This document shows, piece after piece, positions 1 to 20,823 of a stretch of DNA of 27,840 nucleotides (within the stretch, counting starts at the first letter, position 1; every line of letters starts with the position of its first letter). Source of the stretch: a virus; the IMG/VR virus record IMGVR_UViG_3300027896_000175, positions 1 through 27,840 of that record; one strand, 5' to 3'. The notes below the pieces were generated by a model. It did no database searches and was not told the origin of the DNA. It saw only the letters and a program-made list of their open reading frames with translations. Position numbers and translations under genes: made by a program.

Positions 1-3000
1 ATGATAACCAATTGAACGAACTAGGGCTGTTTACGGCATATCAATATCTTGGTATAGCCAGCACTGCTTTCATTCTGCGAGCTAACATAGATCTAGCCCA
101 ACTGATACCAAGCACCACAGAACCAACTGGCTCACCGAACGTTGGCCAATACTGGCTTGACACCAGTTCAACCACCTGGGGCATCTTCCAGAGCAACGGC
201 AATGTAAATCCAAATCTAGCATGGACTAACAAGACCCCCACAGTGTTGGATGATGGCACCTATCTCACAGCTGTGGCACAGGGCAGCACCAGTGTTGGCC
301 CAAGCGGCAGCGCTGCGATCGTTACAGTCAATGCCAATCTGGTTATCAATGGATTCCCGATAGCGTGCACGATTGGACAGAGTCTTGCTGATGTCATCAG
401 CTCTGTAAACAACAGTGTCAACTTGCAAGGTATAGGTATCAGCGCAATCGCGTTTGCTCGTACCGAGAAACCAGATGTGACGGTCACTGCTATATCTGAT
501 CAGTATTACATGCGAATCATCTGCAGCAATCCAGACACCACGATTGACCTAGTGGGCAGCAATACCTATCTGCTTGGTGATCTCGGATTTGCATCAACGA
601 CTCCTGTCAATACCGTTGTCCCGGCGCAGGCCTATGGGCTTGACGGTGCATACGCCATTGATGCCTATAGCATGGCCAGTGGCATGATGGAAAACTACAT
701 CTGGCAGAAAATTCCAGTTGAAACTCTAGACGGCAACAGCACGTCTTGGTGGTTCTTGGTAGGAAGCACTGACACGCAATTCCCGGGTTGGGGATGGCGC
801 GAAGCAACACCAAATGTGGTGACGGGAACTGTCAGCAATCCAACTTTCACAAACGGCACGCAATGCACCTACAGTCCAGCCGAGGCTGCGCCGATAACCA
901 TAACGGTCAGCGGCACCACGATAGATGCATTCATCGCTAGCTGCAATGCTGCATTTGATGCTAATAGCTTCAACACCATAGCAACCAAGAAGACAGTTGG
1001 CAGCAATAATTACGTAGTCATAACAAACTATGACGGCACTGACATGGGATTCCATGACATCAGCACGCAGTCTTACACCACTCATCCTTGGAAGAACGCT
1101 GGCATATCAACTAGCCAAACCTATTATGGATCAGTGACAGGCACTACAGTCAATCCAACTTACACAGCTGCTACTCGCGATGTGGGCAGTGCTGTGGTTG
1201 TTGCCAAGGGAACTGGCTATGCAGTAGGTGATACACTCACTGTTCTAGGCGGAACGGCAACTGTGCAAGGTCAATTGAGTGTGACATCTATCGGAGCTGT
1301 AACGGCAAGCATCAGTGCTGCTGGTACTGGCTATGCCGTGAATGATACGATAACCATTAGCGGTGTCAACTACACCAGTCCTGTGGTATTGCAAGTTACT
1401 TCGATCGGTGGTGGCGGTTCTGTGACAGGACTCAGCGTCATCGCAAGTGGCCAATATACCAGCACCACACCATCTAACCCAGTTACGCCGACCAGCACCA
1501 GCGGCGGCGGGACAGGTGCTACGGTCATCTTGGCCTGGGGTGTCGCGACAGTTAGCGTTGCAACACCAGGTAATTACACCCAAGATCCCACGAACCCTGT
1601 GTCTGTGAGCGGTGGTAGCGGTTCGGGTGCGACATTTAATGTCACGATGGCCTATCTGACCAGTGATGCATTCACCGTAGATCCGGGCACTGGTACGGCA
1701 GTTACTGTGCATGTTCCGGCTGCACCAAACAACACCGTATCTGGTGTTGCTGCAGCGATCACAGCTGCATTCCCTAGCGGGCCTATCGTCGGCAGCGTGA
1801 ATGGCAACAGGTTGGTCATCACAAACACCAACAACGTGCAATTCACTGTCAATGATATAAGCGGCACACCACTAGCTGATTCTGGTATCACTGTTGGTGT
1901 CCAAGCGGGGCGTCAACTGGTTTATCAAGGTTTCTATCCTGCACAAGTGGTACCAAACAACGTGCTACAACTTGGCGTTGGCACGGTATGGATCAATACC
2001 ACTAGCCAGGATCGCGGTGCTAACATCGTCGTGAAACGTTACAGTGGCACGGCATGGGTGACGCAGAATGTGTTCCCTAACACTGGCACAGTGCCTATGT
2101 ACAGCAGCTTTGCAGTCGCCAATGCAGCATTTGGCGGTGGCAAGGGAATTGGTACTATATTTGCTTACTATAATGCAGATGGAGACAGCCCGGCTACAGG
2201 CAAGATAGTGCTCTATGTCTGGGACGGGTCAGCTTGGGTGCCATTGGATTACACTCCGAGCAACAATGCGCCCGCTGGTTCGCCAGCAAATGGCACCTAT
2301 TGGTACAATACCTATCTACAGGTTGATATCATGGTCGGCAACGGTCAGTATTGGCAGGGCTATAAGAATGCCTATCCAGCAACTGATCCAAACGGTCCGA
2401 TCATCGACGGTTCGCAACCACTGGTACAGAGCGACGACACACCTTTGGTAGACAACGACATTTGGATCGACAGCAGCGCAACACCGTATCCTGTCATCTA
2501 TCGCTACGATGCTACCAATGCACAATGGAATCTCGTGGACAACACCAACCACAGCAGCCCATCTGGCATCATATTTGCAGATGCACGCTGGAACGCAAAT
2601 GGTTATGTGGACGGATCGCAGGCTCCAAGTGCCATGGTGCTGAGCAACTATGTTGACAGTGATGCACCAAATGCTGAGCTATATCCGGCAGGCATGCTGC
2701 TGTTCAACACACGTTACAGCACCTACAATGTCAAGCAGTACATGGTCAATTACTTCCCCAACCTCAGTGCGCCATATGACACCAATGCTTGGGTCACAGC
2801 GAGCGGCAATCGCACAGACGGCACGCCGTACATGGGACCAGATGCACAACGTGTCATGGTAGTTGAAGCACTCAATTCTGAGTTGGTCAGCAACCAAGAG
2901 ATACGTGCAGAAGCAGTCAACTATAACCTCATAGCAGTTCCAGGTTACATTGAGTGCTTGGCTGACATGGTTGAGTTGAACACCGATCGCAAGGAGACTG

Positions 3001-3794
3001 CGTTCATCATCGCTGATCCTCCGGGTCAGCTACCTGCAGATGGCACGAGCATCCAGGCATGGGCCACTGACACAAACAATGTAGCAGCAGATGGTCCAGA
3101 TGGATTGATTACCCACAGTCCATACGCTGCGCTCTATTATCCGTGGGCACTAGCAACCAATCTCAATGGCACGGAAGTATTCGTACCACCTAGCGAGATG
3201 GCGCTGCGCACATACGCTTACAATGACCAAGTGGCATACCCATGGTTTGCTCCCGCAGGATTCAACCGCGGTTTGGTCACTGGTGTGCAGAGCGTTGGTT
3301 ATCTCAAGTCTGACGGAACCTATCAGCCGGTGACATTGAACCAAGGTCAGCGCGATGTGCTCTACCTAAATGACATCAATCCAATAACCTACATACCAGG
3401 ACGCGGATTGGTTGTCTACGGACAGAAGACGCTGAATCCAGTAGCAACAGCGTTGGATCGTGTCAATGTGGCACGACTGATCGTTTACATGAAGTATCAG
3501 TTGAACAATCTCGCTCAACCGTTCCTGTTTGAACCAAATGACCAACAGACACGCCAGAGTGTCACCAATACGTTCAACAGCTTCATGGGTAATCTAGTTG
3601 GATTGCGTGCATTGTACGACTTCGCAGTAGTCTGCGATGACACGAACAACACCCCGGCTAGGATCGATGCCAACGAACTTTGGATTGATATTGCTATCAA
3701 GCCAGAAAAGGCTATCGAGTTCATCTACATCCCGATTGTGATATTGAACACTGGTGATCCTATGCCAGGCGGTAATAGGAATCCAACTGCGTAA
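1..3794 (+). CDS. 18: Tail sheath protein, gp18-like (5' end cut by window)
   Basis: Contractile tail sheath subunit; the sheath shortens around the tube during infection. The frame is open to the left edge (codons from base 3), so the TTG at 12 is probably internal and the true start lies upstream. The first visible residues (LGLFTAYQYLGIASTAFILRA) and the last ~350 residues (QRVMVVEALNSELVSNQEIR, RKETAFIIADPP, YPWALATN, IPGRGLVVYGQKTL, VNVARLIVYMKYQL) match the conserved sheath core. About 800 residues of beta-type repeats separate these parts: four or five short units of the form 'YW.dt....I...dG..W', two GTGYAV.DT units and Gly/Ser/Thr-rich stretches. T4 gp18 is 659 residues; this fragment alone is about 1,260. 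The insert is probably exposed on the sheath surface (inference). In T4 gene 19 follows directly; here a hairpin and a cargo cassette follow. Confidence 0.93.
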   Translation, partial: DNQLNELGLFTAYQYLGIASTAFILRANIDLAQLIPSTTEPTGSPNVGQYWLDTSSTTWGIFQSNGNVNPNLAWTNKTPTVLDDGTYLTAVAQGSTSVGPSGSAAIVTVNANLVINGFPIACTIGQSLADVISSVNNSVNLQGIGISAIAFARTEKPDVTVTAISDQYYMRIICSNPDTTIDLVGSNTYLLGDLGFASTTPVNTVVPAQAYGLDGAYAIDAYSMASGMMENYIWQKIPVETLDGNSTSWWFLVGSTDTQFPGWGWREATPNVVTGTVSNPTFTNGTQCTYSPAEAAPITITVSGTTIDAFIASCNAAFDANSFNTIATKKTVGSNNYVVITNYDGTDMGFHDISTQSYTTHPWKNAGISTSQTYYGSVTGTTVNPTYTAATRDVGSAVVVAKGTGYAVGDTLTVLGGTATVQGQLSVTSIGAVTASISAAGTGYAVNDTITISGVNYTSPVVLQVTSIGGGGSVTGLSVIASGQYTSTTPSNPVTPTSTSGGGTGATVILAWGVATVSVATPGNYTQDPTNPVSVSGGSGSGATFNVTMAYLTSDAFTVDPGTGTAVTVHVPAAPNNTVSGVAAAITAAFPSGPIVGSVNGNRLVITNTNNVQFTVNDISGTPLADSGITVGVQAGRQLVYQGFYPAQVVPNNVLQLGVGTVWINTTSQDRGANIVVKRYSGTAWVTQNVFPNTGTVPMYSSFAVANAAFGGGKGIGTIFAYYNADGDSPATGKIVLYVWDGSAWVPLDYTPSNNAPAGSPANGTYWYNTYLQVDIMVGNGQYWQGYKNAYPATDPNGPIIDGSQPLVQSDDTPLVDNDIWIDSSATPYPVIYRYDATNAQWNLVDNTNHSSPSGIIFADARWNANGYVDGSQAPSAMVLSNYVDSDAPNAELYPAGMLLFNTRYSTYNVKQYMVNYFPNLSAPYDTNAWVTASGNRTDGTPYMGPDAQRVMVVEALNSELVSNQEIRAEAVNYNLIAVPGYIECLADMVELNTDRKETAFIIADPPGQLPADGTSIQAWATDTNNVAADGPDGLITHSPYAALYYPWALATNLNGTEVFVPPSEMALRTYAYNDQVAYPWFAPAGFNRGLVTGVQSVGYLKSDGTYQPVTLNQGQRDVLYLNDINPITYIPGRGLVVYGQKTLNPVATALDRVNVARLIVYMKYQLNNLAQPFLFEPNDQQTRQSVTNTFNSFMGNLVGLRALYDFAVVCDDTNNTPARIDANELWIDIAIKPEKAIEFIYIPIVILNTGDPMPGGNRNPTA

Positions 3795-3797
3795 TAA

Positions 3798-3824
3798 AGA
3801 AACCGGGCGAAATGCCCGGTTTCT
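3798..3824 (+). terminator. Hairpin terminator after the sheath gene
   Basis: A perfect 11-bp stem (3798-3808 with 3814-3824, GC-rich core CCGGGC/GCCCGG) closes a 5-nt loop GAAAT and starts 4 nt after the sheath stop codon. The 3' arm ends in TTTCT, so the U tract is short and partly inside the stem. The A-rich 5' arm means it could also work on the opposite strand. It isolates late tail transcription from the cassette. Confidence 0.8.
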
Positions 3825-3859: not shown

Positions 3860-4159
3860 ATGGAAACGGATCACGATCAATCAATATACACCAATGAACT
3901 CAAGCAGTTTCTCAGCGCAAAGCTGTATCAGAATCTAGCTGAGATACATTCGCATATTGAGAATCAGTCAAGCACTGCTGTGGCCACTGATATCCTGCTC
4001 ACCGCTCTTGGCGTGAATATTGGTCATATAGTGGGTCAGTTGCCACCGGAGAAACAGAAGAAGTGCTTGCGTGCTCTGAGAAAGATAATAGACGAGCAGA
4101 TAGCGTCTTTCAGCAAGATAGAAGCACTGTTCACTCATGGTCAAATCGGCCACGCTTGA
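3860..4159 (+). CDS. Small uncharacterised protein (99 aa)
   Basis: First gene after the sheath terminator and 37 nt ahead of the first radical SAM gene, so probably co-transcribed with it. I do not recognise a family. The protein is mostly predicted helix, with a hydrophobic middle (about residues 35-56, AVATDILLTALGVNIGHIVG) followed by a charged segment with many Lys, Arg and Glu. It has a single Cys (in KKCLRAL), no signal peptide and no clear double-glycine leader, so a RiPP precursor role is not supported by composition, though its position makes the idea testable. A small regulatory or partner protein is equally possible. ATG start without a Shine-Dalgarno; see the -10 box at 3849. Confidence 0.6.
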   Translation: METDHDQSIYTNELKQFLSAKLYQNLAEIHSHIENQSSTAVATDILLTALGVNIGHIVGQLPPEKQKKCLRALRKIIDEQIASFSKIEALFTHGQIGHA

Positions 4160-4185
4160 TTTCTGCATCAGTTGATCAGATATCG

Positions 4186-4191
4186 CATACT
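4186..4191 (+). promoter_or_regulatory. Candidate -10-like box CATACT, 5 nt before ATG
   Basis: CATACT ends 5 nt before the ATG at 4197 (GAATC between), the same spacing and nearly the same hexamer as at 3849. No -35 box and no Shine-Dalgarno are seen. It is weak alone and is listed because of the repeated geometry. Confidence 0.25.
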
Positions 4192-4196
4192 GAATC

Positions 4197-5507
4197 ATGA
4201 CTGATACGTGGTGCCCCATACCTTGGAACTTCCAGGCTGTGCGCAGCAATGGTGACTTGCGAGTCTGTTGCCAGGCCAACGGCACCAGAGACAAGGGCGT
4301 GCTACGTCGATCAGACGGGACACCATATAATGCTGCCAAAGATGACCTAACCACAGCTCGAAACAGCGATCTCATGCGCATCATGAGACGCAACATGCTA
4401 GATGGCATATGGAGCGAGGAATGCAGTAGATGCCAATCCGAAGAGCAAGCAGGATTGATCAGCAGGCGCAGCTACGAACAAGATACCTGGGCTATCAGAC
4501 CAGACGATGTGCGAGCTCACACGCTGGCAGATGGTACCATAGACACCGATGCGTTGCCTGTAGTCTATTACGATCTAAGATTTGGTAATCTCTGCAACCT
4601 CGCATGCAGGATGTGCGGACCGCAGGATAGCACTGGATGGTACGACGACTATCATAAGCTAGAAGGCAAGGACTGGTTCACGGATACTCACGGTCGTGAG
4701 CAGATGACCTTACAAAACGGCAGATGGCGAAGCCACAGCTATGATTGGCATGATAGTGATAGCTTCTGGCATCAGATCGAATCTAATGCCAAGAACATCC
4801 AACATGTCTACATGGCAGGTGGGGAACCTTTGCTCATAGACAGGCACTATCAGTTCCTCGAACGCTGCATATCACTTGGTGCAGCTGATAATATGACGAT
4901 TGAATACAACACCAATATGACCAGCATATCAAGTAGAGTATTAAAGCTATGGTCACAGTTCAAGCAGATACAGGTTGGAGCGAGCATAGACGGTTACGGA
5001 TCTGTTTTTGAATATCAGAGACATCCTGCCAACTGGGACAAGGTGTGGCACAATATACAGAAATTAGATGCTGCAGATGGCAATATCAGTGCGTGGTTTG
5101 CTTACACCGTGACGGCATATAATGTCTTGCACATGCCTGATTTCATGCGATGGAAACTAGAATCAAGTAGCCTGAACAAGTTCAACAGCACAACACGCAG
5201 GCCTATCATAACACACCATGTTGCCCACAATCCAAGACATCTAAACATCCGCGTGTTACCCGCTGCAATCAAACACATGGTTGTGGAAAGATTCAATAGA
5301 TTGCACCAGTGGATAGTTTCATCTGGCTATCCAGAACATGTAGTGGCTCACAGTTTGAAGATAAGCAGCAGCGTCACAGACTACATGCTAGCCGAGGATT
5401 ATCACGCAGCACACTGGCACAGATTCCTAGAATACACACGCAAGCTTGATGATATCAGAGGACAGAATGTCCTAGATGTGATACCAGAGCTGGACAGTCA
5501 TCTCTGA
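4197..5507 (+). CDS. Twitch-domain radical SAM protein, copy 1
   Basis: Radical SAM enzyme expected to bind one [4Fe-4S] cluster for SAM cleavage and probably an auxiliary cluster. The radical SAM motif is C133-x3-C137-x2-C140 (CNLACRMC), with the SAM-binding GGEP at 208-211. An N-terminal Cys-rich module precedes it (WCP at 5-7, VCC at 23-25, CSRC at 76-79), as in radical SAM proteins with an N-terminal twitch domain. It is a clear paralogue of the protein at 6406: shared blocks include CP(I/L)PW, NGDLR.C, CRRC/CSRCQSE, DLR.GN.CNL.C.MC and GGEPLLI. Substrate unknown; SPASM/twitch relatives often act on peptides, but some act on sugars or small molecules. Its 3' end overlaps the oppositely oriented PLP gene by 10 nt. 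Confidence 0.88.
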   Translation: MTDTWCPIPWNFQAVRSNGDLRVCCQANGTRDKGVLRRSDGTPYNAAKDDLTTARNSDLMRIMRRNMLDGIWSEECSRCQSEEQAGLISRRSYEQDTWAIRPDDVRAHTLADGTIDTDALPVVYYDLRFGNLCNLACRMCGPQDSTGWYDDYHKLEGKDWFTDTHGREQMTLQNGRWRSHSYDWHDSDSFWHQIESNAKNIQHVYMAGGEPLLIDRHYQFLERCISLGAADNMTIEYNTNMTSISSRVLKLWSQFKQIQVGASIDGYGSVFEYQRHPANWDKVWHNIQKLDAADGNISAWFAYTVTAYNVLHMPDFMRWKLESSSLNKFNSTTRRPIITHHVAHNPRHLNIRVLPAAIKHMVVERFNRLHQWIVSSGYPEHVVAHSLKISSSVTDYMLAEDYHAAHWHRFLEYTRKLDDIRGQNVLDVIPELDSHL

Positions 5508-6361
5508 TCGCCTGGACCTATGTATCGCAGCAACGGTCTGATGCCAACTGGTGCACCGTCTCGAGTCCTCGCGAGATGTATGCTCTTGGTTGGCGACAGA
5601 TCAAAATCGTCGCATACCTTGTGATAGGCTGCGGTGTATCGACGCCAGAAATATTCCGGACCAAGCTCTCTCATGAATTTGGTGCCAAGCTTCATCAGCG
5701 CATGCGGATTCATGTTATAATCGTTCATGATCGTGATAGCACCTGGTGGTTCCCCTCTGGCAAACCTCAGTCCTATTCGGTTGCTTCCTATTCCACCTTT
5801 GCTAAGGCTGATGCAGAACGTGCTAATAGCCGGATGATCGAAATCAAAACTGATACCCCTAGAGCAGCTTATCCATGCACCGTCGATGTGCACAGGTATG
5901 CCTAGATCCTCGCAGCGATCCAAGATCTGCTGCATCTCGGGGTGCACATCTCCGATCGAAGGGAATGGCATGGATATCAGCAGTTCCTTGCCAGGGACCA
6001 AGCTAGCCAAAGTTGTATATACGATGTCGTTGTTCAATCGCCAATGATACTTGTAGTCACCTTCAAATATCATCACATTGCTCGAACCACATCGCTGATA
6101 GATATCGTCGATATATTGCGTGCATCCGTGAGAGACATCGAGGCGCGCGAAATTCCGGTATCCTTTGAGATCGCTGGCAGAGTGTCCGTCTAACCAATCC
6201 AAGAAGGTTCGTTTGAATTCACCTTCGAGGTCCACATTGAAATCCACTGGCTCGGCATAGAATCTATCGTATAGCTGTGTGATGGTCTTGTCATACATGG
6301 GTTGCGGACGATCATATTGCAACCAAGCGATGTCATATTGCCTGTTTTCGCTATCTCTCAT
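5498..6361 (-). CDS. PLP-dependent fold type I enzyme (aminotransferase-like), copy 1
   Basis: Pyridoxal-phosphate enzyme of the aspartate aminotransferase fold. Visible landmarks in order: SHGCT at 77-81 (phosphate-binding turn), FEGDYKYH at 99-106, D160 in HIDGAW (contact to the pyridine nitrogen) and K188 in SLSKGGIGSNRIG (Schiff-base lysine with a following Arg for phosphate). At 287 residues it is shorter than usual aminotransferases (about 350-400). The protein at 9400 is its paralogue with the same landmarks. It is the only gene on this strand within the radical SAM stretch: convergent with 4197 and divergent from 6406 across 44 bp. Probably cytoplasmic. Amino donor, acceptor, or a lyase instead of transaminase reaction cannot be told from sequence. 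Confidence 0.82.
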   Translation of the reverse strand: MRDSENRQYDIAWLQYDRPQPMYDKTITQLYDRFYAEPVDFNVDLEGEFKRTFLDWLDGHSASDLKGYRNFARLDVSHGCTQYIDDIYQRCGSSNVMIFEGDYKYHWRLNNDIVYTTLASLVPGKELLISMPFPSIGDVHPEMQQILDRCEDLGIPVHIDGAWISCSRGISFDFDHPAISTFCISLSKGGIGSNRIGLRFARGEPPGAITIMNDYNMNPHALMKLGTKFMRELGPEYFWRRYTAAYHKVCDDFDLSPTKSIHLARTRDGAPVGIRPLLRYIGPGDQR

Positions 6362-6387
6362 GATATGTAGTTTATTGGAAGACGCGC

Positions 6388-6393
6388 TATAAT
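6388..6393 (+). promoter_or_regulatory. TATAAT -10 box in the divergent 44-bp gap
   Basis: A perfect TATAAT stands 12 nt before the ATG at 6406, inside the short divergent spacer 6362-6405 between the minus-strand PLP gene and the second radical SAM gene. No good -35 at 16-18 bp and no Shine-Dalgarno are visible, so an activator or a phage-modified polymerase may be needed. The minus-strand promoter of the PLP gene must lie in or near the same spacer. Confidence 0.5.
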
Positions 6394-6405
6394 GCTAATC
6401 GCCTT

Positions 6406-7713
6406 ATGACGGAGATCGCAGAACAGATGATCTGGTGCCCGCTGCCGTGGACTCATATCGGAGTCAAGAACAACGGTGATCTGAGGATGTGTAGCCACAG
6501 CCAAAGTGCTGGCACTGGCAACACTCTCTTGATCAAAGATGGCCGGGTTCTGACCATCGACGATGTGGGATCCGTTGATATCTTGAACTGCGACACCCTG
6601 AAAGAAGTTAGAAAGGAGATGTTGCAGGGCAAATGGCCCTCTCAGTGCCGTCGCTGTCAATCAGAATATGAGGTGGGTGCTAATAGCCGCAATCTCTGGG
6701 AAAGTGATCGGTATGGCAAACATTTCAACCGGGACATATCGCACGCAATGACTAACCAAGATGGCAAAATCACAGATGGTAGATTCCGAGACTTTGATCT
6801 GAGAATTGGTAATCAGTGTAACCTTCGCTGTGTCATGTGTTTCCCAGGAGAAGCACACAAGTGGTATGATATCTATGAGGAGGTCACTGGCAACGATAGT
6901 TTTGTGGTCGATAATACCACGTATAGCCTGGGATCTGATATTGATCACTTTGGATGGTCAAAGCACAAGAAGAACATTGATTCACTGGTCTCAGTTTCTG
7001 ACGATCTAACCAAAATCACGTTTGGCGGCGGCGAACCTTTGCTGATCAAGCATCACCGACATCTGCTTGAGAGCCTCATAGAACGCGGCATAGCCGGGAA
7101 CATCGATCTCGAATACAGCAGCAACATCACGGTCTTTCCGAGTGGGCTGTTTGAACTGTGGAAGTCCTTCAAGCATGTGAAGATCTGTGCCAGCGTAGAT
7201 GCGTTTGGTATGGCCAATGAGGCCATACGGTATCCTAGCAAATGGGAAACAGTGTCGCGTAATCTCCGCATGTTAGACGACACGCCAGATAACATTTCTG
7301 TGTTCGTGTCCACCACTATTAGTAACATATCACTTGAGCATTTTGGATATCTATTGAGATGGATAAAAGACCAACAATATGCGAAAATCTCTTTACATGT
7401 CAGCCACTTAGTTTACAATCCTCGTCACTTCAACATAGGGCTCTTGCAGCAGGAACACATGGATCGTATAGTGGAGCGATGCTACCGAGATATTGGCGAC
7501 GACAAGAGACTACGCAGCAAGATAGATCATTATCGAGATCTCTATCGCAAGGTGGCCTTCGTTGATCCTGTGGATCTAGAGCAGAGTCGCGGACATATGG
7601 TCAGGATATTCCGTAAGTTAGAAAGAAACCAACAGCAAAACTGGGATGATATATTCCCTATCGCATCCAGTATAGTGAATGAATTCCAAACCTTGTATGG
7701 GATAGAGGTCTGA
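6406..7713 (+). CDS. Twitch-domain radical SAM protein, copy 2
   Basis: Paralogue of the protein at 4197 with the same architecture and length (435 against 436 residues). N-terminal Cys module: C11 (WCPLPW), C29 (DLRMC), C81 and C84 (CRRC). Radical SAM motif C138-x3-C142-x2-C145 (CNLRCVMC); GGEP at 208-211. The N-terminal cysteine positions correspond to copy 1 except that copy 1 has CC where this has CS. It begins a tight plus-strand run to 11476: the next gene starts 1 nt after its stop. The ATG at 6406 has no Shine-Dalgarno; no better in-frame start is apparent. Having two copies around a PLP gene suggests either duplication with new substrate use or a heteromeric pair. Substrate unknown. 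Confidence 0.88.
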   Translation: MTEIAEQMIWCPLPWTHIGVKNNGDLRMCSHSQSAGTGNTLLIKDGRVLTIDDVGSVDILNCDTLKEVRKEMLQGKWPSQCRRCQSEYEVGANSRNLWESDRYGKHFNRDISHAMTNQDGKITDGRFRDFDLRIGNQCNLRCVMCFPGEAHKWYDIYEEVTGNDSFVVDNTTYSLGSDIDHFGWSKHKKNIDSLVSVSDDLTKITFGGGEPLLIKHHRHLLESLIERGIAGNIDLEYSSNITVFPSGLFELWKSFKHVKICASVDAFGMANEAIRYPSKWETVSRNLRMLDDTPDNISVFVSTTISNISLEHFGYLLRWIKDQQYAKISLHVSHLVYNPRHFNIGLLQQEHMDRIVERCYRDIGDDKRLRSKIDHYRDLYRKVAFVDPVDLEQSRGHMVRIFRKLERNQQQNWDDIFPIASSIVNEFQTLYGIEV

Positions 7714-7714
7714 A

Positions 7715-8275
7715 GTGAGAGCACTAATAACAGGTAATGGTCAGCAAGGTTTATCCGCTGCGATAGGTAAACAGCTGCCAGATGTCACCTATGTCAGTCG
7801 TAGCAGTGGATTTGACCTGACAAACCATCAAGACCAGTTGAGATGCGCTGAGCTAGCTCTTGAACATGATGTATTCATAAATTGTGCGGCTTTGTGGCGA
7901 TTCAATCAGACTGTGCTGATGGATGCAGTGTACAAAGCCTGCACAGCCGCAGGCCACCGAATACATCTTATAGCCATAGGCAGCACCACAGATAGGGTCA
8001 AGAACGGCAAGGCTTGGCTATACAACGCAGAGAAGAAAGCACTGCGAGATTGGTGCAACACTCTGGCAATCGGCGGTGTCTGGAGCAATGGTCCAAAAAT
8101 ATCATATGTGAGCCTGGGAACGCTGAGCAATAACCAAGACAAGCATCCAGATAGGCGTTGCTTGGACATAGACCAAGCAGCCAGCTATGTGATATGGTTA
8201 TTGAACCAACCTCGAGGCATAAACATCAATGAGATAAGCATCGACCCGATGCAGGATGCGCATTGGCATGAATGA
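7715..8275 (+). CDS. Short-chain dehydrogenase/reductase (SDR family)
   Basis: NAD(P)-dependent oxidoreductase with a Rossmann fold. Visible: TGNGQQGLS at 6-14 (glycine-rich nucleotide loop), NCAA at 56-59 (the NAG-type motif), S90 in IAIGS, and Y103-x3-K107 (YNAEK), together the Ser-Tyr-Lys catalytic set. Length 186 residues is short for the family (about 250), with a reduced C-terminal substrate lid. The GTG start is supported by AGAGG at 7704-7708, 6 nt upstream. It lies between two radical SAM genes in the same run and so probably oxidises or reduces a hydroxyl or keto group on the common intermediate, for example making the ketone that a PLP enzyme would aminate (inference). Confidence 0.82.
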   Translation: MRALITGNGQQGLSAAIGKQLPDVTYVSRSSGFDLTNHQDQLRCAELALEHDVFINCAALWRFNQTVLMDAVYKACTAAGHRIHLIAIGSTTDRVKNGKAWLYNAEKKALRDWCNTLAIGGVWSNGPKISYVSLGTLSNNQDKHPDRRCLDIDQAASYVIWLLNQPRGININEISIDPMQDAHWHE

Positions 8276-9410
8276 AGATCACAAGACTAGCAGCTACGAT
8301 TTCACCAAGATACCATTTGACGATATCGTGAAGTTTGGTCAGCGCACCTTGTTATATCGTGATATCTTCTGTGTTAGCTGGTTGCTGGGAAGATATTGCA
8401 ACTATAACTGCAGCTATTGCTGGCCTTATGCACGCAGCAACACCAAAGACTATCGTCCCATTGCTCTTAACCTCATGACCATGGACGAGATCAAACGCCA
8501 GAGCAGGGAACGAGGTTTCAACAGTTTCCATTTCAGTTTCAGCGGCGGTGAACCCACGGTTTATCCAGACTATCTAAGATTACTGGAACATTACAGCAAT
8601 GATACTGCGAACTGCAATTACCAAAGCGTGCACATGACCAGCAACATATCACAGGGTATTCGTTGGTTTGAGAGATACGTGGCAGCCACAAAAGAATTGC
8701 ACAGAGTCAGCGTCACGGCAAGCTGGCATAGAGAACAAGGCATCAAGCAAGGTAATCTCAAAGGTCACACGGAAAAATTCGCAGACAAATTGGTATTCCT
8801 GCAGGAGAATGACATACAGGTCACGGTCAATACCGTGATGGTGCCCCAATGGTTTGATATGCTGTACGCCGAAGCAGAGTACTTCCTGAGTCGCGGTATC
8901 AATGTCACACTAAAACCGCAGAGCGATCCTTCTGCTAGCAAAGTGGTGGACGGCTACACCGATCAACAGCGAGCCATCCTGCATAATGGCATGCCACAGC
9001 GCGATTTCACTGGCGTCAAATCCAAGACAACGAGACCCAAGCCAGCGGTGAGCATGCACAGGATGTCAATTGACAACGGCGACACTGATGCTGTTCCTCA
9101 GATAATGCAGGTGGAATTTGAAGACAGCAAAGGTGCCAAATGGTACATGGACCAAGCAGAACGCTTCAACGCGTTTGGTTTCAACAGCTTCAAGGGCTGG
9201 GAGTGTGAGAGCGGGTATCGTAGCATCATAATACGAGAACCTGATGGCTCGATCAAACGCAGCTACAGCTGCAGTGATAAACCTCTTGGTTACATCGAGA
9301 CTGGTTTCAAGTTGTTTGATAGGCCAATGCCTTGCATCAGTGATGCATGTGTCAGCAGTGCTGACAGCAAGATACCAAAGATGCGCAGGATCAACGGAAA
9401 TGCTGGATAA
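8256..9410 (+). CDS. Radical SAM protein with SPASM/twitch-like C-terminus
   Basis: Third radical SAM enzyme, of different architecture from the other two. The cluster motif C48-x3-C52-x2-C55 (CNYNCSYC) is near the N-terminus, followed by SFSGGEP at 94-100. The C-terminal part (about 315-376) has C317, C339, C360 and C365 arranged as C..G...I.I..DG.I..SYSC, then LGYI..G, PCISDAC and IPK, the layout of a SPASM/twitch auxiliary-cluster domain. It overlaps the SDR gene by 20 nt if the ATG at 8256 is used, or 8 nt with the ATG at 8268; neither start has a clear Shine-Dalgarno. The paired radical SAM and auxiliary domain are typical of enzymes that modify peptides or alcohols and carbohydrates; the actual substrate is unknown. 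Confidence 0.88.
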   Translation: MRIGMNEDHKTSSYDFTKIPFDDIVKFGQRTLLYRDIFCVSWLLGRYCNYNCSYCWPYARSNTKDYRPIALNLMTMDEIKRQSRERGFNSFHFSFSGGEPTVYPDYLRLLEHYSNDTANCNYQSVHMTSNISQGIRWFERYVAATKELHRVSVTASWHREQGIKQGNLKGHTEKFADKLVFLQENDIQVTVNTVMVPQWFDMLYAEAEYFLSRGINVTLKPQSDPSASKVVDGYTDQQRAILHNGMPQRDFTGVKSKTTRPKPAVSMHRMSIDNGDTDAVPQIMQVEFEDSKGAKWYMDQAERFNAFGFNSFKGWECESGYRSIIIREPDGSIKRSYSCSDKPLGYIETGFKLFDRPMPCISDACVSSADSKIPKMRRINGNAG

Positions 9411-10173
9411 GATAACCAAAGGCGCCATTAGTCCTAGGCATGCAACAGCCGATATGGCAGCCTATCGGGCATTCCAAACTGAATTCGATCAATGGATACA
9501 CAGCTCCAAGCAGAAAGTCTCTGGATTGCCGGAGACCCGAGTCTTGGTTTCTGGTATCACAGATGCACTCAATCAAACCTATGCATTGTATCAGCAGATA
9601 GGCGTGTTTGACGGCGAATATGGATATCACAGTCTAGTGTTGGGCAACAGGGTAACCAAGATGTTGTCAGCGGCAGATGCCATAGTGGTGAGCCATCCGT
9701 TCAGCGCTGATGGTATGAGCTCGCATGATAAACTCAAACAAGCTGATTGTTTTGGTAAACCTATATTCGTTGACTGCGCATTCTTTGGAATCTGTGCCAA
9801 TGTTGATTTTGACTTCGCGTCTTACAACAACATCCACAGCGTGTGCTTTAGCCTAAGCAAGACCTTTGGCACAGGTCATCGCAGGATTGGCATGCTGTAT
9901 ACTCGAGATCGATACGCAGCATCGGTATATGACGAATGGTCGTATCCTCTGATAGCCAGCGCGGAGCATCACTATCGACTGCTTAAAACCATCGGACCGG
10001 ACGATACCTTTGAGCGTCTCAGGAGTGCACAGGAATCTATCTGTGTCCAATTGAACGTGGAACCAAGTGACACGGTGATCTTTGGCATAGATAGAAGCAA
10101 TCTCTATCCTGAGTACAAGCGTGGTCAAGTTGGCAGACTCTGCATCAGTCAGCTTTTGCAAGATGGTCAGTGA
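9400..10173 (+). CDS. PLP-dependent fold type I enzyme (aminotransferase-like), copy 2
   Basis: Paralogue of the minus-strand protein at 5498. Matching landmarks: SGITD at 51-55 (against SHGCT), FDGEYGYH at 70-77 (against FEGDYKYH), D125 in FVDCAFFG (against HIDGAW), and K154 in SLSKTFGTGHRRIG (against SLSKGGIGSNRIG). At 257 residues it is still shorter and lacks part of the usual C-terminal small domain. I chose the ATG at 9400, which overlaps the end of the radical SAM gene by 11 nt and has GCAGGA about 9 nt upstream; the longer reading frame from 9244 would overlap that gene by over 150 nt. It probably works with the adjacent radical SAM and SDR enzymes. Retention of Lys and Asp argues for a working cofactor site. 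Confidence 0.78.
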   Translation: MLDKITKGAISPRHATADMAAYRAFQTEFDQWIHSSKQKVSGLPETRVLVSGITDALNQTYALYQQIGVFDGEYGYHSLVLGNRVTKMLSAADAIVVSHPFSADGMSSHDKLKQADCFGKPIFVDCAFFGICANVDFDFASYNNIHSVCFSLSKTFGTGHRRIGMLYTRDRYAASVYDEWSYPLIASAEHHYRLLKTIGPDDTFERLRSAQESICVQLNVEPSDTVIFGIDRSNLYPEYKRGQVGRLCISQLLQDGQ

Positions 10174-10910
10174 TGAGATATCCATTCTTAGAGCACAATA
10201 GATTGGTTTTGGTTGACTACTTGCCTGGTTCTTCCGGACAGCTTTTGCTGCGTCTGTGGTCAGAACTAGATTCGAGGCTGATGTACGACAATGCTACGAT
10301 TCTCAGCGAGCTCTCGATCACACCACATCTGGGTTCTCGCGAGATAGATTACGATATACTGATACCAAAACGCATCACCAACTGGTTCCTTGACAGATGC
10401 CAACCTCAGGCAGTGGATGATTACCTGCAATTCTTTGAGTTTCTAGGTACCACCATCGTTGCACTCCAGCAGAAATGGGTCAAAGGTCAGTTTGGTCAGA
10501 AATTCTATGATGACGATGATTATAAGCTAGAAGGTCGCAGAGTGCTGTACGGCATACACACCTGGGGCAAGCTGGTGCCATGGGCAGAGATGCGCGCCAG
10601 AGGTTATGAAATAACAGTCATCAAGATAGTACCTAATTCAACATTGGGTTTGAAGTATCAGCATGATAGATGCCAGGCATGCTATCCATTTGCCGAGGGA
10701 GTTTGGCCTGATGCAATAGAGAGATTCAACTCCAAGACCGATGCTGCTGTAGCTTTTGATTTCTGCACGCTACTGGCTACTAAAGACACCGCCGGCATCA
10801 TCGGATGGATAGCAGAGTGCCTTGGGCCAGATCTGCGACAAGATAAGTTATCAAGGGTCTCAGAGATACTAGAGACATATTATTCAAACATAGTAGACAT
10901 GATCCTATGA
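10173..10910 (+). CDS. Uncharacterised protein with P-loop-like N-terminus
   Basis: I cannot assign a family with confidence. The N-terminus reads as a beta strand (RLVLVDY) followed by LPGSSGQLLLRL at 17-28, resembling the phosphate-binding loop of sulfotransferases and some kinases, where a hydrophobic strand runs into a Gly/Ser turn and helix. The canonical Walker A lysine is absent. The rest is a 245-residue alpha/beta-type soluble protein with an RVLYGIHTW segment mid-way that could hold a conserved His. Start: GTG at 10170 or ATG at 10173, overlapping the previous stop; the next gene overlaps by 4 nt, so translation is probably coupled. A transferase decorating the cassette product (sulfate or phosphate) is a guess only. 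Confidence 0.6.
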   Translation: MRYPFLEHNRLVLVDYLPGSSGQLLLRLWSELDSRLMYDNATILSELSITPHLGSREIDYDILIPKRITNWFLDRCQPQAVDDYLQFFEFLGTTIVALQQKWVKGQFGQKFYDDDDYKLEGRRVLYGIHTWGKLVPWAEMRARGYEITVIKIVPNSTLGLKYQHDRCQACYPFAEGVWPDAIERFNSKTDAAVAFDFCTLLATKDTAGIIGWIAECLGPDLRQDKLSRVSEILETYYSNIVDMIL

Positions 10911-11476
10911 CATTTGAGCGCTATCACACCATGACTGGATCTCGAGGATCTCTTGCCGAGGTCTGGATCGATCGTGATGCCAAGCTGGTCAAGAAGTTAT
11001 ATAAACCAGATGGTATCACCATACGGAATAGACCACCTTTGCACACGGATCTTGACCAGATAAGAGCTCTCTACGAAAACGAATTGCATTGGAGCAAGGT
11101 GTTGAAATCTGATCTCATCCTCGAGATCTACGAACACGGAGAGCTAGCAGATGGCGCTGGGTTCTACATCATGCAGGAATACGTTGGACCAGATCTATTG
11201 CATTATTTCAACTCGAGTGATCGCCTAGACAACATCGTGCCAGATGCCGCTGAGCAGATAGTGGAGATGTTTGAGTTCTTCCGCGACCATTCTATCTACA
11301 AGCTCAACAACGCCATGTGCAATCTAACCTTAGCAGACGGCCGCATCAAGGCCTTTGATTTCAAGTATGCTATACCAAGGGATCCATTGAAGAGGCATCT
11401 GGAGATGCACAGCATAGAACAATGGATCGCCAAGATAGATCCCAGATTACCAGGCATGCTTGCAGACTATGTCTAG
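10907..11476 (+). CDS. Small kinase-fold protein, catalytic Asp replaced
   Basis: Resembles the protein kinase / aminoglycoside phosphotransferase fold. Seen in order: K29-K30 in LVKKLYKP (beta-3 lysine), E59 in YENEL (helix C glutamate), a hinge-like IMQEYVG at 88-94, KLNNAMCN at 132-139 where kinases have HRDxKxxN, and FDFKYA at 150-155 in the DFG position. The catalytic-loop Asp aligns to N134, while the metal-binding N139 and D151 are kept, suggesting a pseudokinase or an unusual nucleotide binder. There is no glycine-rich loop of standard form. At 189 residues it is far below the usual 260. Start ATG overlaps the previous stop (ATGA); the gene ends 2 nt before the convergent oxygenase gene. 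Confidence 0.65.
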   Translation: MTFERYHTMTGSRGSLAEVWIDRDAKLVKKLYKPDGITIRNRPPLHTDLDQIRALYENELHWSKVLKSDLILEIYEHGELADGAGFYIMQEYVGPDLLHYFNSSDRLDNIVPDAAEQIVEMFEFFRDHSIYKLNNAMCNLTLADGRIKAFDFKYAIPRDPLKRHLEMHSIEQWIAKIDPRLPGMLADYV

Positions 11477-11478
11477 GG

Positions 11479-12045
11479 TTACTCTAGGACGCTTGCGACT
11501 AGATGTATGCGTTCCTCTAAACCTGAATTGAATGCCGTGTGAGACAGTGTTGTGTCGGTTAGATAACAACTTCCGTCTGCTGGCAAATGCTGTACGGTAT
11601 CTTCGATAACCATCATGGCCCCTGGATTGGTGATGATGGGGATGTGAAGCCTTTTTTCTGCGTCTTTATGCCAACTCATGCAGCTCTTTGGTTTGATTCG
11701 CATCAATCTGACACGGCCGACGCTGTAGTGCGATGTGATACGCGCATAGACATCTTTGAACACTGTGTCATTGAATTCTTTGACGAAATTACGGAAATCT
11801 GCCTCGGTTTTGACCACTGATCGTTTAGATAGCTCACCATTGGCGTCATAGGCATCCTCTCCCCATGCGTACCAGAGACTTCCCGTGGCATCGTGCCAGC
11901 TAGCTGCTGCATCCCTGTCGAGGCTGTGAGTTAGTCCTATCTGGTTATGATGCGGATGCCACTCGCAGATTCCAAGCACCTGTTCAAGGCCTACCTTGAG
12001 CGTGTCTATATCAAACCGCAGATCTAGGAATTTGACGTGTTTCAT
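11479..12045 (-). CDS. 2OG-Fe(II) oxygenase, Asp/Asn beta-hydroxylase-like
   Basis: Double-stranded beta-helix dioxygenase using 2-oxoglutarate and Fe(II). Visible: H126-x-D128 in SWHKDAE, R132-L-H134 followed by IPIITNPG, GSCYLTD at 158-164, H169 in LSHTAFN and R179 in ERIHLV, which matches the H...R.HIP..TN...H..N....R.HL pattern of the aspartyl/asparaginyl hydroxylase group; H126, D128 and H169 are the likely iron ligands and R179 the 2OG contact. The open frame reaches 12426, but that would overlap the tail tube gene. I chose the ATG at 12045 (188 aa, begins MKHVKFLDL); ATGs at 12075 and 12093 are alternatives. No strong Shine-Dalgarno. It is divergent from the tube gene and convergent with the kinase-like gene, closing the cassette. 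Confidence 0.8.
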   Translation of the reverse strand: MKHVKFLDLRFDIDTLKVGLEQVLGICEWHPHHNQIGLTHSLDRDAAASWHDATGSLWYAWGEDAYDANGELSKRSVVKTEADFRNFVKEFNDTVFKDVYARITSHYSVGRVRLMRIKPKSCMSWHKDAEKRLHIPIITNPGAMMVIEDTVQHLPADGSCYLTDTTLSHTAFNSGLEERIHLVASVLE

Positions 12046-12177: not shown

Positions 12178-12774
12178 ATGGCTTTCCAACCTACACTCAG
12201 CAAGTTTGGCGTTCCTATAGTGCCGGGCACGAGCGGCCTCGGCATACTCATGCCCAAACTGAAGTATCGTTTCAGGGTCAGCATGCAGAGTTTTGGACCA
12301 GCTGGCGCTGCGATTGAGCTGACGAGGCAAGTTTCCAGCGCTGGTAGGCCAACCATACAGCAGGAATCCATTGCTATACACAGCTATAACAACATCATGT
12401 ATGTGCCCCAGAAGCCAGTGTGGCAAACCATAGAAATCAAGGTCAGGGACGACGTCAATAACAGCGTATCGCGCCTAGTAGCCACACAGCTACAGAAGCA
12501 GATGAATCACTTTGATCAGACATCGGAACTCGCAGGCATCAACTACAAGTTCACCACACAGATCGAAACACTGGACGGCGGCAACACAGGCGTCCTTGAA
12601 AATTGGTATCTGGAAGGTTGCTACCTGCAGCAAGTGCAATATGACCAATTTGATTACAGCAGCAGCGAACAGATGATGATCAGCATGACCATCCGTTACG
12701 ATAACGCTACGCAGGATAACACCATCATGCCGCAGACAGCTGCAGCCACCGGAATAGGATCGTTGGTCGGCTAA
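12178..12774 (+). CDS. 19: Tail tube protein, gp19-like
   Basis: Major subunit of the inner tail tube through which DNA is ejected. The 198-residue length is close to T4 gp19 (163). Family features: KYRFRVSM near the N-terminus, ELTRQVSSAGRP, a beta-rich middle (TIEIKVRDDV), the helix SRLVATQLQKQMNHFDQ, and the C-terminal strand set ENWYLEGCYLQQVQYDQFDYSS ending in MISMTIRYDNA. The ATG at 12178 is preferred over the in-frame TTG at 12157 because it has GGAG at 12168-12171, 6 nt upstream, and because the late promoter would start transcription inside the longer reading. It is followed by a strong terminator, so it can be expressed as a single-gene unit, as suits an abundant protein. Confidence 0.88.
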   Translation: MAFQPTLSKFGVPIVPGTSGLGILMPKLKYRFRVSMQSFGPAGAAIELTRQVSSAGRPTIQQESIAIHSYNNIMYVPQKPVWQTIEIKVRDDVNNSVSRLVATQLQKQMNHFDQTSELAGINYKFTTQIETLDGGNTGVLENWYLEGCYLQQVQYDQFDYSSSEQMMISMTIRYDNATQDNTIMPQTAAATGIGSLVG

Positions 12775-19288: not shown

Positions 19289-20311
19289 ATGTATACCAAA
19301 GATCAATGGAATGATCTCAGAGATCTTTGGTTGCAAGCACTCGATCGCACTAACACAGATGCATGGTTCCGAGATAATGTGTGGCCTGTGATCCAACAGG
19401 GTTATTATGCTGGTACTCTCACAAGAGAGTTGCTGCAGAAGGCACTGGCGATCGGCACGCAATCTCAAAATTCATCGCCTAGCCAACTCGACGATTTGCC
19501 TCCGTTACCGCCGTTGCCTGGCAGCCAACCCGCAGGGGCCGGGTCATCACGTCCAGATGACATGCTATCCAAGCTAGGTGATGCTCCGCAGCCAAGTCCA
19601 GGATATAAATCACCAGGTGAGAGGGGAGAAGATCCGTCCACATGGAAGATTAAATTAGATGATTGGTCATATGATCCGCAGAAGGTATACAATAAGGTGA
19701 AATCTGACCTATTCAACGGTGACTTACCAGACATCCCAGTATCTTTTGGGACGAGCACAGGATACGCAGATACCAGTTTTCGGATGCAGTGTCCCGAAAA
19801 TGTGAAATCTGATTCTGATTGCAAAGCTATCTTAGATACTTTGCATATCACCATGACGGATATCTCGGAATTAGAGCACGATACGAAATGGCATGCTAAT
19901 CTCTTGTCTTCGATAGTCCACGAAGCCTGCCACGTGTGGATGATCTCGCATGGTTTCCCACTGGAAGGACATGGTCCGAATTTCCGTAAATTGCTCTACA
20001 GCATCGCGCAGAAGACTGGCATGGACTACAACATCATGCTAGGCGATTATCAACCAGACATGCAGGAGAATGCAATGGACATGCGAGGATTGATCGGCAT
20101 CGTTGAACAACTGACTCAACGCATGAACGAAGACGACGAACAAAATGATACCGGCGCAGTACCGCAAAAGAACAACGCTGCATCAACGGCAAAAGATGAT
20201 CCGCTGGCCGATCTGCGCGGCGAAGACGGTCTCATAACCGTGCACACGCATGAATTTCCCACAGGCGAAGACATCGCAAAACGCATCGCCGCAGCGACTC
20301 CGGTGGCATGA
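19289..20311 (+). CDS. SprT-like zinc metallopeptidase, copy 1 (340 aa)
   Basis: Zinc peptidase of the SprT/Spartan type, judged from H211-E212-x2-H215 (IVHEACHVW) with a third ligand H228 in LEGHGPNFRKLL, the HExxH...H..xF layout of that family. The upstream strand FNGDLPDIPVSFG at 142-154 corresponds to the F...LP...V.. start of SprT domains. The first ~60 residues are a separate helical region, then a Pro/Gly-rich linker (70-120), the catalytic domain (about 125-255), and a charged C-terminal tail. The ATG at 19289 has CGGAGA at 19278-19283; an ATG at 19284 is out of frame. It stands next to a second SprT-like gene between the terminase genes, so proteolysis during head maturation or packaging is possible, but unproven. 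Confidence 0.8.
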   Translation: MYTKDQWNDLRDLWLQALDRTNTDAWFRDNVWPVIQQGYYAGTLTRELLQKALAIGTQSQNSSPSQLDDLPPLPPLPGSQPAGAGSSRPDDMLSKLGDAPQPSPGYKSPGERGEDPSTWKIKLDDWSYDPQKVYNKVKSDLFNGDLPDIPVSFGTSTGYADTSFRMQCPENVKSDSDCKAILDTLHITMTDISELEHDTKWHANLLSSIVHEACHVWMISHGFPLEGHGPNFRKLLYSIAQKTGMDYNIMLGDYQPDMQENAMDMRGLIGIVEQLTQRMNEDDEQNDTGAVPQKNNAASTAKDDPLADLRGEDGLITVHTHEFPTGEDIAKRIAAATPVA

Positions 20312-20823
20312 TCATGGAACATGATTTTGGGCCATCCTTGGTGACACTCCGGGAAGATGACATAGCGCATCCAGACAAGCCTGTTCAGGTATCTGATATA
20401 AAGCAACGATATCAACAGTTCAACGCCAAGTATTTCAACAATAGACTCCCTGAGGTGCTGATCAATTTTGCCGCGTTGCCAGGCGAAGTTGGTGCAATGA
20501 CACATTATCAGGCCACCAAACAAGGCAATCAAGGTCACGTGGATCCTCGTTCGATTCGTATAGATATCAATAACATGTTCAAGAGCCCACGAGTGCATTA
20601 TGGCACAAAGGGCAGCGTTTGGAGCATACTCTTGCATGAGATGACCCACATCCTCATGGGAGTTAGTGGCTTAGTAGACGAGCATCACGGACCTCGTTTC
20701 AAGTCAGAACTACAGAGACTCAGTCCGTTGACTGGTTACAGTTATGATGACCTCATGGGCAAGATACAGGCTCGAGAATCTGAGGTAATCAGTCGAATGC
20801 GAACACTGGCCGGCATAGGATAG
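20308..20823 (+). CDS. SprT-like zinc metallopeptidase, copy 2 (171 aa)
   Basis: Compact SprT-like domain: YQQFNAKYFNNRLPEVLINF at 35-54 is the typical N-terminal helix and strand (F...YF...LP...), followed by H110-E111-x2-H114 (LLHEMTHILM) and the third zinc ligand in DEHHGPRFKSEL (H126 or H127). It resembles the 340-residue neighbour in the catalytic region but lacks its N-terminal and C-terminal extensions. The start codon overlaps the upstream stop by 4 nt (ATGA), so the two are translationally coupled; a second in-frame ATG at 20314 is possible. SprT/Spartan relatives degrade DNA-bound or crosslinked proteins, which would suit clearing DNA ahead of packaging (inference). Confidence 0.82.
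   Translation: MIMEHDFGPSLVTLREDDIAHPDKPVQVSDIKQRYQQFNAKYFNNRLPEVLINFAALPGEVGAMTHYQATKQGNQGHVDPRSIRIDINNMFKSPRVHYGTKGSVWSILLHEMTHILMGVSGLVDEHHGPRFKSELQRLSPLTGYSYDDLMGKIQARESEVISRMRTLAGIG

Follow-up and report, generated by a model that had tools for sequence, protein, structure and literature searches.

The virus sequence IMGVR_UViG_3300027896_000175 (positions 1 to 27,840; the whole 27.8 kb stretch is called the window) is a linear virus record with a cassette of enzyme genes at 3860–12045, between the tail sheath and tail tube genes. The cassette is composite: it consists of a core (rSAM1, PLPa, rSAM2, SDR, and R3) and a separately mobile module (PLPb, g246, kin, and 2OG). We favor, with a probability of about 0.42, the reading that these two mobile enzyme sets at a cargo hot spot constitute a small-molecule tailoring pathway for an amino-acid-like moiety. 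A first-pass annotation of the window, made from the letters alone, had placed a cassette of at least nine genes between sheath and tube; ten open reading frames (ORFs) occupy the site, in a sheath-to-tube gap of 8.4 kb. The enzyme classes that it named (radical S-adenosylmethionine (SAM), pyridoxal phosphate (PLP), short-chain dehydrogenase/reductase (SDR), P-loop, kinase-like, and 2-oxoglutarate (2OG)-Fe(II) oxygenase) are confirmed by profiles, alignments, and the predicted fold of g246. The cassette genes, whose calls are mechanical (ORF-based), are as follows.

3860–4159, plus strand: g99, a small helical-looking protein beside the sheath gene; homologues lie directly 3′ of the sheath gene in the sister loci having g99, and conservation is even along its length.
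4197–5507, plus strand: rSAM1, a radical SAM enzyme with an N-terminal twitch domain (NF033640, 379 bits against a cut-off of 170).
5498–6361, minus strand: PLPa, a short fold-type-I PLP enzyme (invariant K188, D160, and R279; valine-pyruvate aminotransferase, 1e-4).
6406–7713, plus strand: rSAM2, a radical SAM enzyme with an N-terminal twitch domain (NF033640, 300 bits against a cut-off of 170) and the same set of Cys residues as rSAM1.
7715–8275, plus strand: SDR, a minimal SDR of 186 amino acids (triad S90, Y103, and K107; farnesol dehydrogenase, 9e-9, and other SDRs).
8256–9410, plus strand: R3 (rSAM3), a radical SAM enzyme and the most conserved gene of the cassette (PF04055, 3e-13; at least 193 viral relatives).
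9400–10173, plus strand: PLPb, a second short fold-type-I PLP enzyme and gene 1 of the module (invariant K154 and D125; class I aminotransferases, 3e-4).
10170–10910, plus strand: g246, a P-loop protein with a sulfotransferase-like predicted fold and gene 2 of the module (mean predicted local distance difference test score (pLDDT) of the model, 87).
10907–11476, plus strand: kin, a kinase-fold protein and gene 3 of the module (protein-kinase profile, 2e-5).
11479–12045, minus strand: 2OG, a 2OG-Fe(II) oxygenase of the Asp_Arg_Hydrox family and gene 4 of the module (PF05118, 3.8e-10, 40.3 bits against a cut-off of 22.6).

The composite structure is evident from the neighborhoods of homologues. 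The counts below were taken from the best 80 matches of each scan and are biased toward relatives of the window, and the records are nearly all uncultured and mostly fragments. For R3, at least 193 viral loci were confirmed, the best 80 of which were read in detail. The closest relatives share the order sheath, radical SAM/PLP, radical SAM, SDR, R3, and tube, and in ten sister loci the tube gene directly follows R3, with the module absent. In the window and in L003, by comparison, PLPb, g246, and kin follow R3 and are followed by a minus-strand 2OG gene, and in L002 and L015 g246 and kin follow R3 without PLPb. Searches with kin, g246, and PLPb show that the PLP/P-loop/kin/2OG set recurs in varied orders, with R3 in some viruses and without R3 in others. 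Since the module is missing in ten sister loci and recurs elsewhere with or without R3, the cassette is a core plus a mobile module.

Each set is held together across viruses. Among 63 distinct R3 loci, a mean of 4.4 further radical SAM genes is found within 8 kb, and an SDR gene lies at most two genes from R3 on the same strand in 21 of the 63; directly upstream of R3, it is present in 26 of 82 R3 genes, a count from which duplicates have not yet been removed. Within 2.5 kb of kin (30 distinct loci), a PLP gene is present in 21, a P-loop gene in 17, and a 2OG gene in 16. The baseline among other genes of R3 loci is 18%, 8%, and 24%, respectively. The enrichment near kin is about fourfold for PLP, sevenfold for P-loop, and twofold for 2OG, these factors being rough because the baseline comes from a different locus set. 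Conserved co-occurrence in other viruses, which the first-pass annotation had envisaged, is thus found, and homologues are not scattered singly. Its picture of one gene set acting together holds in that the neighborhoods are conserved, but has to be modified in that the set divides into core and mobile module, with two genes on the opposite strand.

The plus-strand block at 6406–11476 is tightly packed, as had been noted earlier, with overlaps at 8256/8275, 9400/9410, 10170/10173, and 10907/10910. The start of PLPb is taken as the ATG at 9400, the longer ORF start at 9244 being mechanical. PLPa and 2OG lie on the minus strand, so that a single transcript cannot carry the whole cassette. Homologues of every cassette gene occur in further virus contigs. 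When nine of the ten genes are compared with relatives (the enzyme-like ones, with g99 left out), pN is 0.09–0.35, far below the near-saturated pS of 0.77–1.02; the nine genes are under strong purifying selection. The presence of homologues for every gene, together with this selection, indicates that the cassette is not a chance assembly. Family searches with single sequences hardly detect PLPa, PLPb, SDR, g246, and kin, and family profiles and alignments were used instead. The catalytic residues are retained in SDR, PLPa, PLPb, 2OG, and all three radical SAM proteins, with kin as the exception.

In the family of rSAM1 and rSAM2 (11 proteins), C133, C137, and C140 of the CxxxCxxC motif and C6, C24, C76, and C79 in the N-terminal part are invariant. 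The top solved match of the N-terminal twitch (N-twitch) profile is the sactipeptide maturase SkfB (1.4e-6). In R3, C48, C52, and C55 are invariant in 18 proteins, as are C317, C339, C360, and C365 near the C terminus. These four C-terminal Cys residues fit one putative auxiliary cluster. The mean column identity of R3 is 77% over 18 diverse viral proteins. R3-bearing viral records hold 1–23 radical SAM genes, often clustered, such as 23 in 180 kb, 22 in 519 kb, and 15 in 203 kb. The 519 kb record (G002, the record behind locus L018) carries its 22 genes in approximately four clusters, and its terminase is 73% identical to that of the window. Other genes in the arrays are also of a tailoring type and include QueC-like PP-loop, B12 radical SAM, nitroreductase, TauD, methyltransferase, AMP-ligase, and carbamoyltransferase genes.

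The catalytic triad of the SDR, S90, Y103, and K107 (Tyr-x3-Lys), is invariant in 17 proteins. A Pfam search with the single sequence gave no SDR family at E ≤ 1; the class is assigned by fold-level homology of the family profile to solved SDRs, together with the triad. The matches of the profile include 4-hydroxyisoleucine dehydrogenases. In the PLP enzymes, the Schiff-base Lys and the pyridine-binding Asp are assigned by family motif as K188 and D160 in PLPa and as K154 and D125 in PLPb. Both proteins match class I amino-acid aminotransferases and are not of the DegT type.

The 2OG enzyme conserves H126-x-D128, H169, and R179 without exception. Its best solved match is Cpz10, at 4.5e-35 by family profile and 4.8e-18 by single sequence, and the next is a proline hydroxylase. 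Cpz10 is the β-hydroxylase of the biosynthesis of caprazamycin, a nucleoside antibiotic, and acts on an amino-acid-derived side chain (PMC9814697). The model of g246 matches tyrosylprotein sulfotransferases best (Z 10.3, rmsd 3.3, 180 aligned residues). Its eight top structural matches are all sulfotransferases (Z 9.0–10.3), followed by nucleotide kinases at Z 8–9. Judging by eye from the family alignment, G-x-S-G-Q is retained, and a conserved Lys or Arg is not obvious in either of the motifs for binding 3′-phosphoadenosine 5′-phosphosulfate.

The catalytic position of kin should be noted. When it is assigned through the spacing to the next Asn and to the DFG Asp, Asn replaces the catalytic HRD Asp in all 31 of 31 homologues (pattern K-x-N-x4-N ... 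D-F-K), and the metal-binding Asp of the DFG type is retained in D151-F152-K153. The kinase-like character proposed in the first-pass annotation is thus supported by the kinase profile match, but ordinary phosphoryl transfer is doubtful because the HRD Asp is lacking. The conservation pattern suggests a role in nucleotide binding or as a non-classical transferase. In L152–L157, a kin homologue lies directly 3′ of an 887-amino-acid gene, and PLP and 2OG neighbors are absent.

The recurrence of the same enzyme sets in many uncultured viruses and on chromosomes of some Bdellovibrionota, bacteria of a predatory type, argues that they are probably small-molecule tailoring pathways, in line with the biosynthetic or modification pathway suggested at first pass. 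An amino-acid-like substrate is favored because of the matches of 2OG (Cpz10 and proline hydroxylase), of the PLP enzymes (class I aminotransferases), and of the SDR (hydroxy-amino-acid dehydrogenases). In such a pathway, the radical SAM enzymes of the core would remove hydrogen from unactivated carbons in a small substrate, the SDR would interconvert the resulting alcohol and ketone, and PLPa would catalyze transamination or elimination at an α-amino-acid-like center. In the module, 2OG would hydroxylate an amino-acid-like carbon, PLPb may act on the amino acid hydroxylated by 2OG, and g246 and kin could transfer or guide a further group. Core and module together would tailor an amino-acid-, nucleoside-, or amino-sugar-like small molecule during infection. 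That the two sets share one pathway, as well as the substrate class and the order of steps, is what we infer from these assignments.

Several observations weigh against this tailoring pathway. Core and module are found apart, so that a shared pathway is not required, and PLPa and 2OG are on the strand opposite to the other cassette genes. The predicted model of R3 has a mean pLDDT of only 75, and its structural neighbors, BlsE, EpeE, viperin, and SkfB, are tied in Z though their substrates are very different; the tie gives no choice among small molecule, peptide, and nucleotide. Few structures of PF05118 members have been solved, and the closeness of 2OG to Cpz10 is therefore weak evidence for the substrate. 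Finally, an adenylation or carrier-protein gene is absent from this cassette.

A broader proposal is that R3 marks a virus-adapted modular natural-product system of uncultured T4-like and jumbo-type viruses, in which interchangeable modules would make specialized metabolites during infection, as a viral counterpart of bacterial biosynthetic clusters. We put this forward tentatively and consider it rather unlikely. The arrays are nevertheless a strikingly enzyme-rich cargo of aquatic viruses, and R3 offers a single well-conserved marker for them. The window supplies two compact gene sets that each encode four to five enzymes and are of a size suited to expression tests, and with the cultured phages Mosig and K566, which have related cassettes, the question can be put to the test in infected cells. 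Knowing the product would show how the synthesis of complex small molecules benefits viruses.

Outside viruses, R3 is almost restricted to metagenome-assembled genomes (MAGs) of Bdellovibrionota, where it occurs in 17 of the 291 genomes of the phylum. These contigs are chromosome-sized and have housekeeping neighbors, such as the seryl-tRNA synthetase-like gene recognized by eye in L091. R3 is accompanied by N-twitch and Rc4 radical SAM genes in 13 of 16 contigs, and by a protein of the DGDN family in 11 of 16; a single split genome accounts for two of the 16, and another (L088) bears no title beyond bacterium. The DGDN family is weakly GT2-like (Glyco_tranf_2_2, 0.0026), and its genes neighbor those of radical SAM proteins both in Bdellovibrionota and in a few viruses (L088–L110, L143, and L229). 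In the R3 tree, most Bdellovibrionota sequences lie outside a viral group (93/93 support); the root is the midpoint and is uncertain, so that R3 may have passed in either direction between this phylum and viruses. The R3 sequences of L097 and L106–L108, four in all and from other MAGs, group with the viral ones, and these may be viral contigs.

The Bdellovibrionota loci bear on the idea that the cassette decorates a glycan of the envelope or virion, with a modified amino sugar or glycan substituent being joined to the host surface polysaccharide or to the virion. The association of R3 there with two more radical SAM genes and the weakly GT2-like DGDN protein is in keeping with it, as is the presence near some of these loci of GT2 genes and of a gene that by eye is UDP-galactopyranose-mutase-like. 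So are the four twitch radical SAM genes of Vibrio phage K566, which lie near pagP and are intermixed with three glycosyltransferase genes (two GT8, one GT4-like), and the cassette by the tail fibers of Pelagibacter phage Mosig EXVC030M, in which a sugar aminotransferase of the DegT type is confirmed and genes for an epimerase and a carbamoyltransferase are annotated. The predicted sulfotransferase fold of g246 would also suit such a role. In the R3 arrays themselves, however, the 25 most frequent Pfam families of 88 array gene clusters include no glycosyltransferase. GT2 genes occur in five of nine R3 virus records, distant from the arrays; DegT genes occur in only two of the nine, and the PLP enzymes of the cassette are not of this type. 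A glycan pathway was thus rejected as the lead reading and is considered unlikely. The envelope or amino-sugar product entertained at first pass accordingly retains indirect support from the glycosyltransferases at the Bdellovibrionota and K566 loci, but these genes are rare and distant in R3 viruses.

It is distinctly unlikely that the radical SAM, 2OG, and PLP enzymes alter residues in a peptide or in a virion protein, for instance in sheath or tube. Peptides are frequent substrates of twitch/SPASM radical SAM enzymes; the N-twitch profile points to SkfB (1.4e-6), R3 resembles EpeE among others, g246 resembles tyrosylprotein sulfotransferases in fold, and the cassette is flanked by tail genes. 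No precursor-like gene is found among ORFs of at least 60 amino acids, however, and PLP aminotransferase and SDR chemistry fits poorly to internal residues. The only small ORF in that size range, g99, was rejected as the precursor of a ribosomally synthesized and post-translationally modified peptide, being evenly conserved, without a variable core, and absent from most R3 loci. The position beside tail genes was likewise rejected as a sign of tail modification, since the arrays of other viruses are away from tail genes and adjoin thyA/DHFR and other non-tail genes.

The genes might instead be unrelated auxiliary genes that accumulated at a hot spot and affect host metabolism independently of one another. 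Unrelated cargo occupies the sheath-tube interval of the cultured phages PA5oct (a homing endonuclease) and Phosso (a Ro-like protein), and gene order and content differ between relatives. On the other hand, the SDR-R3 and PLP-P-loop-kin-2OG adjacencies recur across distant viruses, and frames overlap in the window. Because recurrent sets are kept together, neutral accumulation is an unlikely explanation, and we give this reading little credence. A pathway to a modified nucleotide or DNA base, such as thymidine hypermodification or a viperin-like nucleotide, is highly improbable: the R3 core resembles viperin (38.7 bits by NCBIfam, 1.8e-11 by PADLOC, and among the top Foldseek matches) and BlsE, and QueC-like genes occur in other arrays, but the similarity to viperin is confined to the core and stays far short of the 180 bits set as the cut-off for viperin, so that R3 was not accepted as a viperin, and a search of 12 records for HMUDK and ADDT domains gave no match, a weak negative since a control genome was equally silent. 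Known thymidine hypermodification uses PLP and radical SAM enzymes; viperin is not known to have the four extra Cys residues conserved in R3. DNA hypermodification was rejected on the missing markers, with the same reservation, and antiphage defense on the finding of weak PADLOC matches only (viperin, PD-T4-6, and type II methyltransferase).

Arrays of radical SAM genes in T4-like viruses are already known in outline. Nishimura et al. 2017 (PMC5332604) described an environmental virus of T4-like type whose genome has 12 radical SAM genes, and Zaragoza-Solas et al. 2020 (PMC7029224) described radical SAM cassettes in the host recognition cluster of pelagimyophages. These viruses share with the window a T4-like nature and many radical SAM genes in variable cargo regions. 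The consulted parts of both papers propose no function or pathway and do not define R3, the SDR-R3 pair, or the PLP/P-loop/kin/2OG module. No functional study of such arrays in viruses was found in the open-access literature. The first-pass remark that this gene set was not recognized as a described system stands, although the arrays as such had been reported; as far as found, the conserved core, the mobile module, the altered kinase-fold family, and the link to Bdellovibrionota are apparently undescribed.

A search of INPHARED found no relatives of R3, kin, or g246. Among cultured phages, Mosig has a PLPb-related PLP enzyme, two Asp_Arg_Hydrox genes, nitroreductases, and Rc4-type radical SAM genes beside its tail fibers, whereas the R3, kin, g246, and SDR profiles have no match in the 30 kb examined, and a DegT aminotransferase and a carbamoyltransferase are present. 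The large Vibrio phages K566 and K567 carry several N-twitch radical SAM genes in one array, which in K566 is interleaved with GT8/GT4 glycosyltransferases and has no match to the R3, PLP, and kin profiles in the 17 kb examined. The chromosomal R3 of Bdellovibrionota shows approximately 58–65% identity and is accompanied by N-twitch and Rc4 genes, but its locus, with the DGDN protein alongside, usually lacks the SDR, the PLP genes, and the kin module. Caprazamycin-type clusters (PMC9814697) have a 2OG enzyme of the same family and kinase-like proteins; the likeness was compared for 2OG alone, and no nucleoside-specific enzymes were seen in the window.

The large terminase subunit (TerL) of the window is approximately 52% identical to those of Sinorhizobium phage Phosso and Pseudomonas phage PA5oct, 73–78% identical to those of 64, 216, and 519 kb records, and 66–78% identical to that of a 155 kb record, where it is in two pieces. 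These identities place the source of the window in a jumbo-type myophage of the T4 supergroup. The borders of the cassette are as follows.

12–3794, plus strand: tail sheath gene, left border, 1260 amino acids with an extended N-terminal part (phrog_10581, 3.8e-209; PF17482, 6.4e-14).
3798–3824, plus strand: terminator-like hairpin at the junction of sheath and cassette, with a 12-pair stem including seven G-C pairs (consensus match only).
12178–12774, plus strand: tail tube gene, right border (phrog_4542, 1.2e-51; 54% identical to the Phosso tube).

The first-pass annotation had regarded sheath and tube genes as normally adjacent. They are separated here, but the same is true of the cultured relatives, in which the interval contains six genes (Phosso, including the Ro-like protein) or one (PA5oct). 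Because these relatives already hold cargo there, the sheath-tube interval is a cargo hot spot of this lineage.

In sister viruses (L005, 10375–12600; L006, 12024–13186; L011; and L012), a further site, between the w158 and TnsA-like nuclease genes, holds one or two additional N-twitch radical SAM genes, and in the window this site has none. Elsewhere in the window, 16811–19267 encodes an 818-amino-acid protein with two similar segments of the SFxDAFxxARKAAGG type and a low-complexity Pro/Ala stretch, for which a Pfam search gave no match. An adjacent pair of SprT-like zinc metallopeptidase-type genes (19289–20311 and 20308–20823) directly precedes the terminase gene. Many contigs in L239–L264 have two PLP genes flanking a gene of approximately 159 amino acids, and recombination genes of the phosphoesterase and SMC/Rad50-like kinds, which by eye resemble gp46/gp47, lie alongside; this set looks like a different system.

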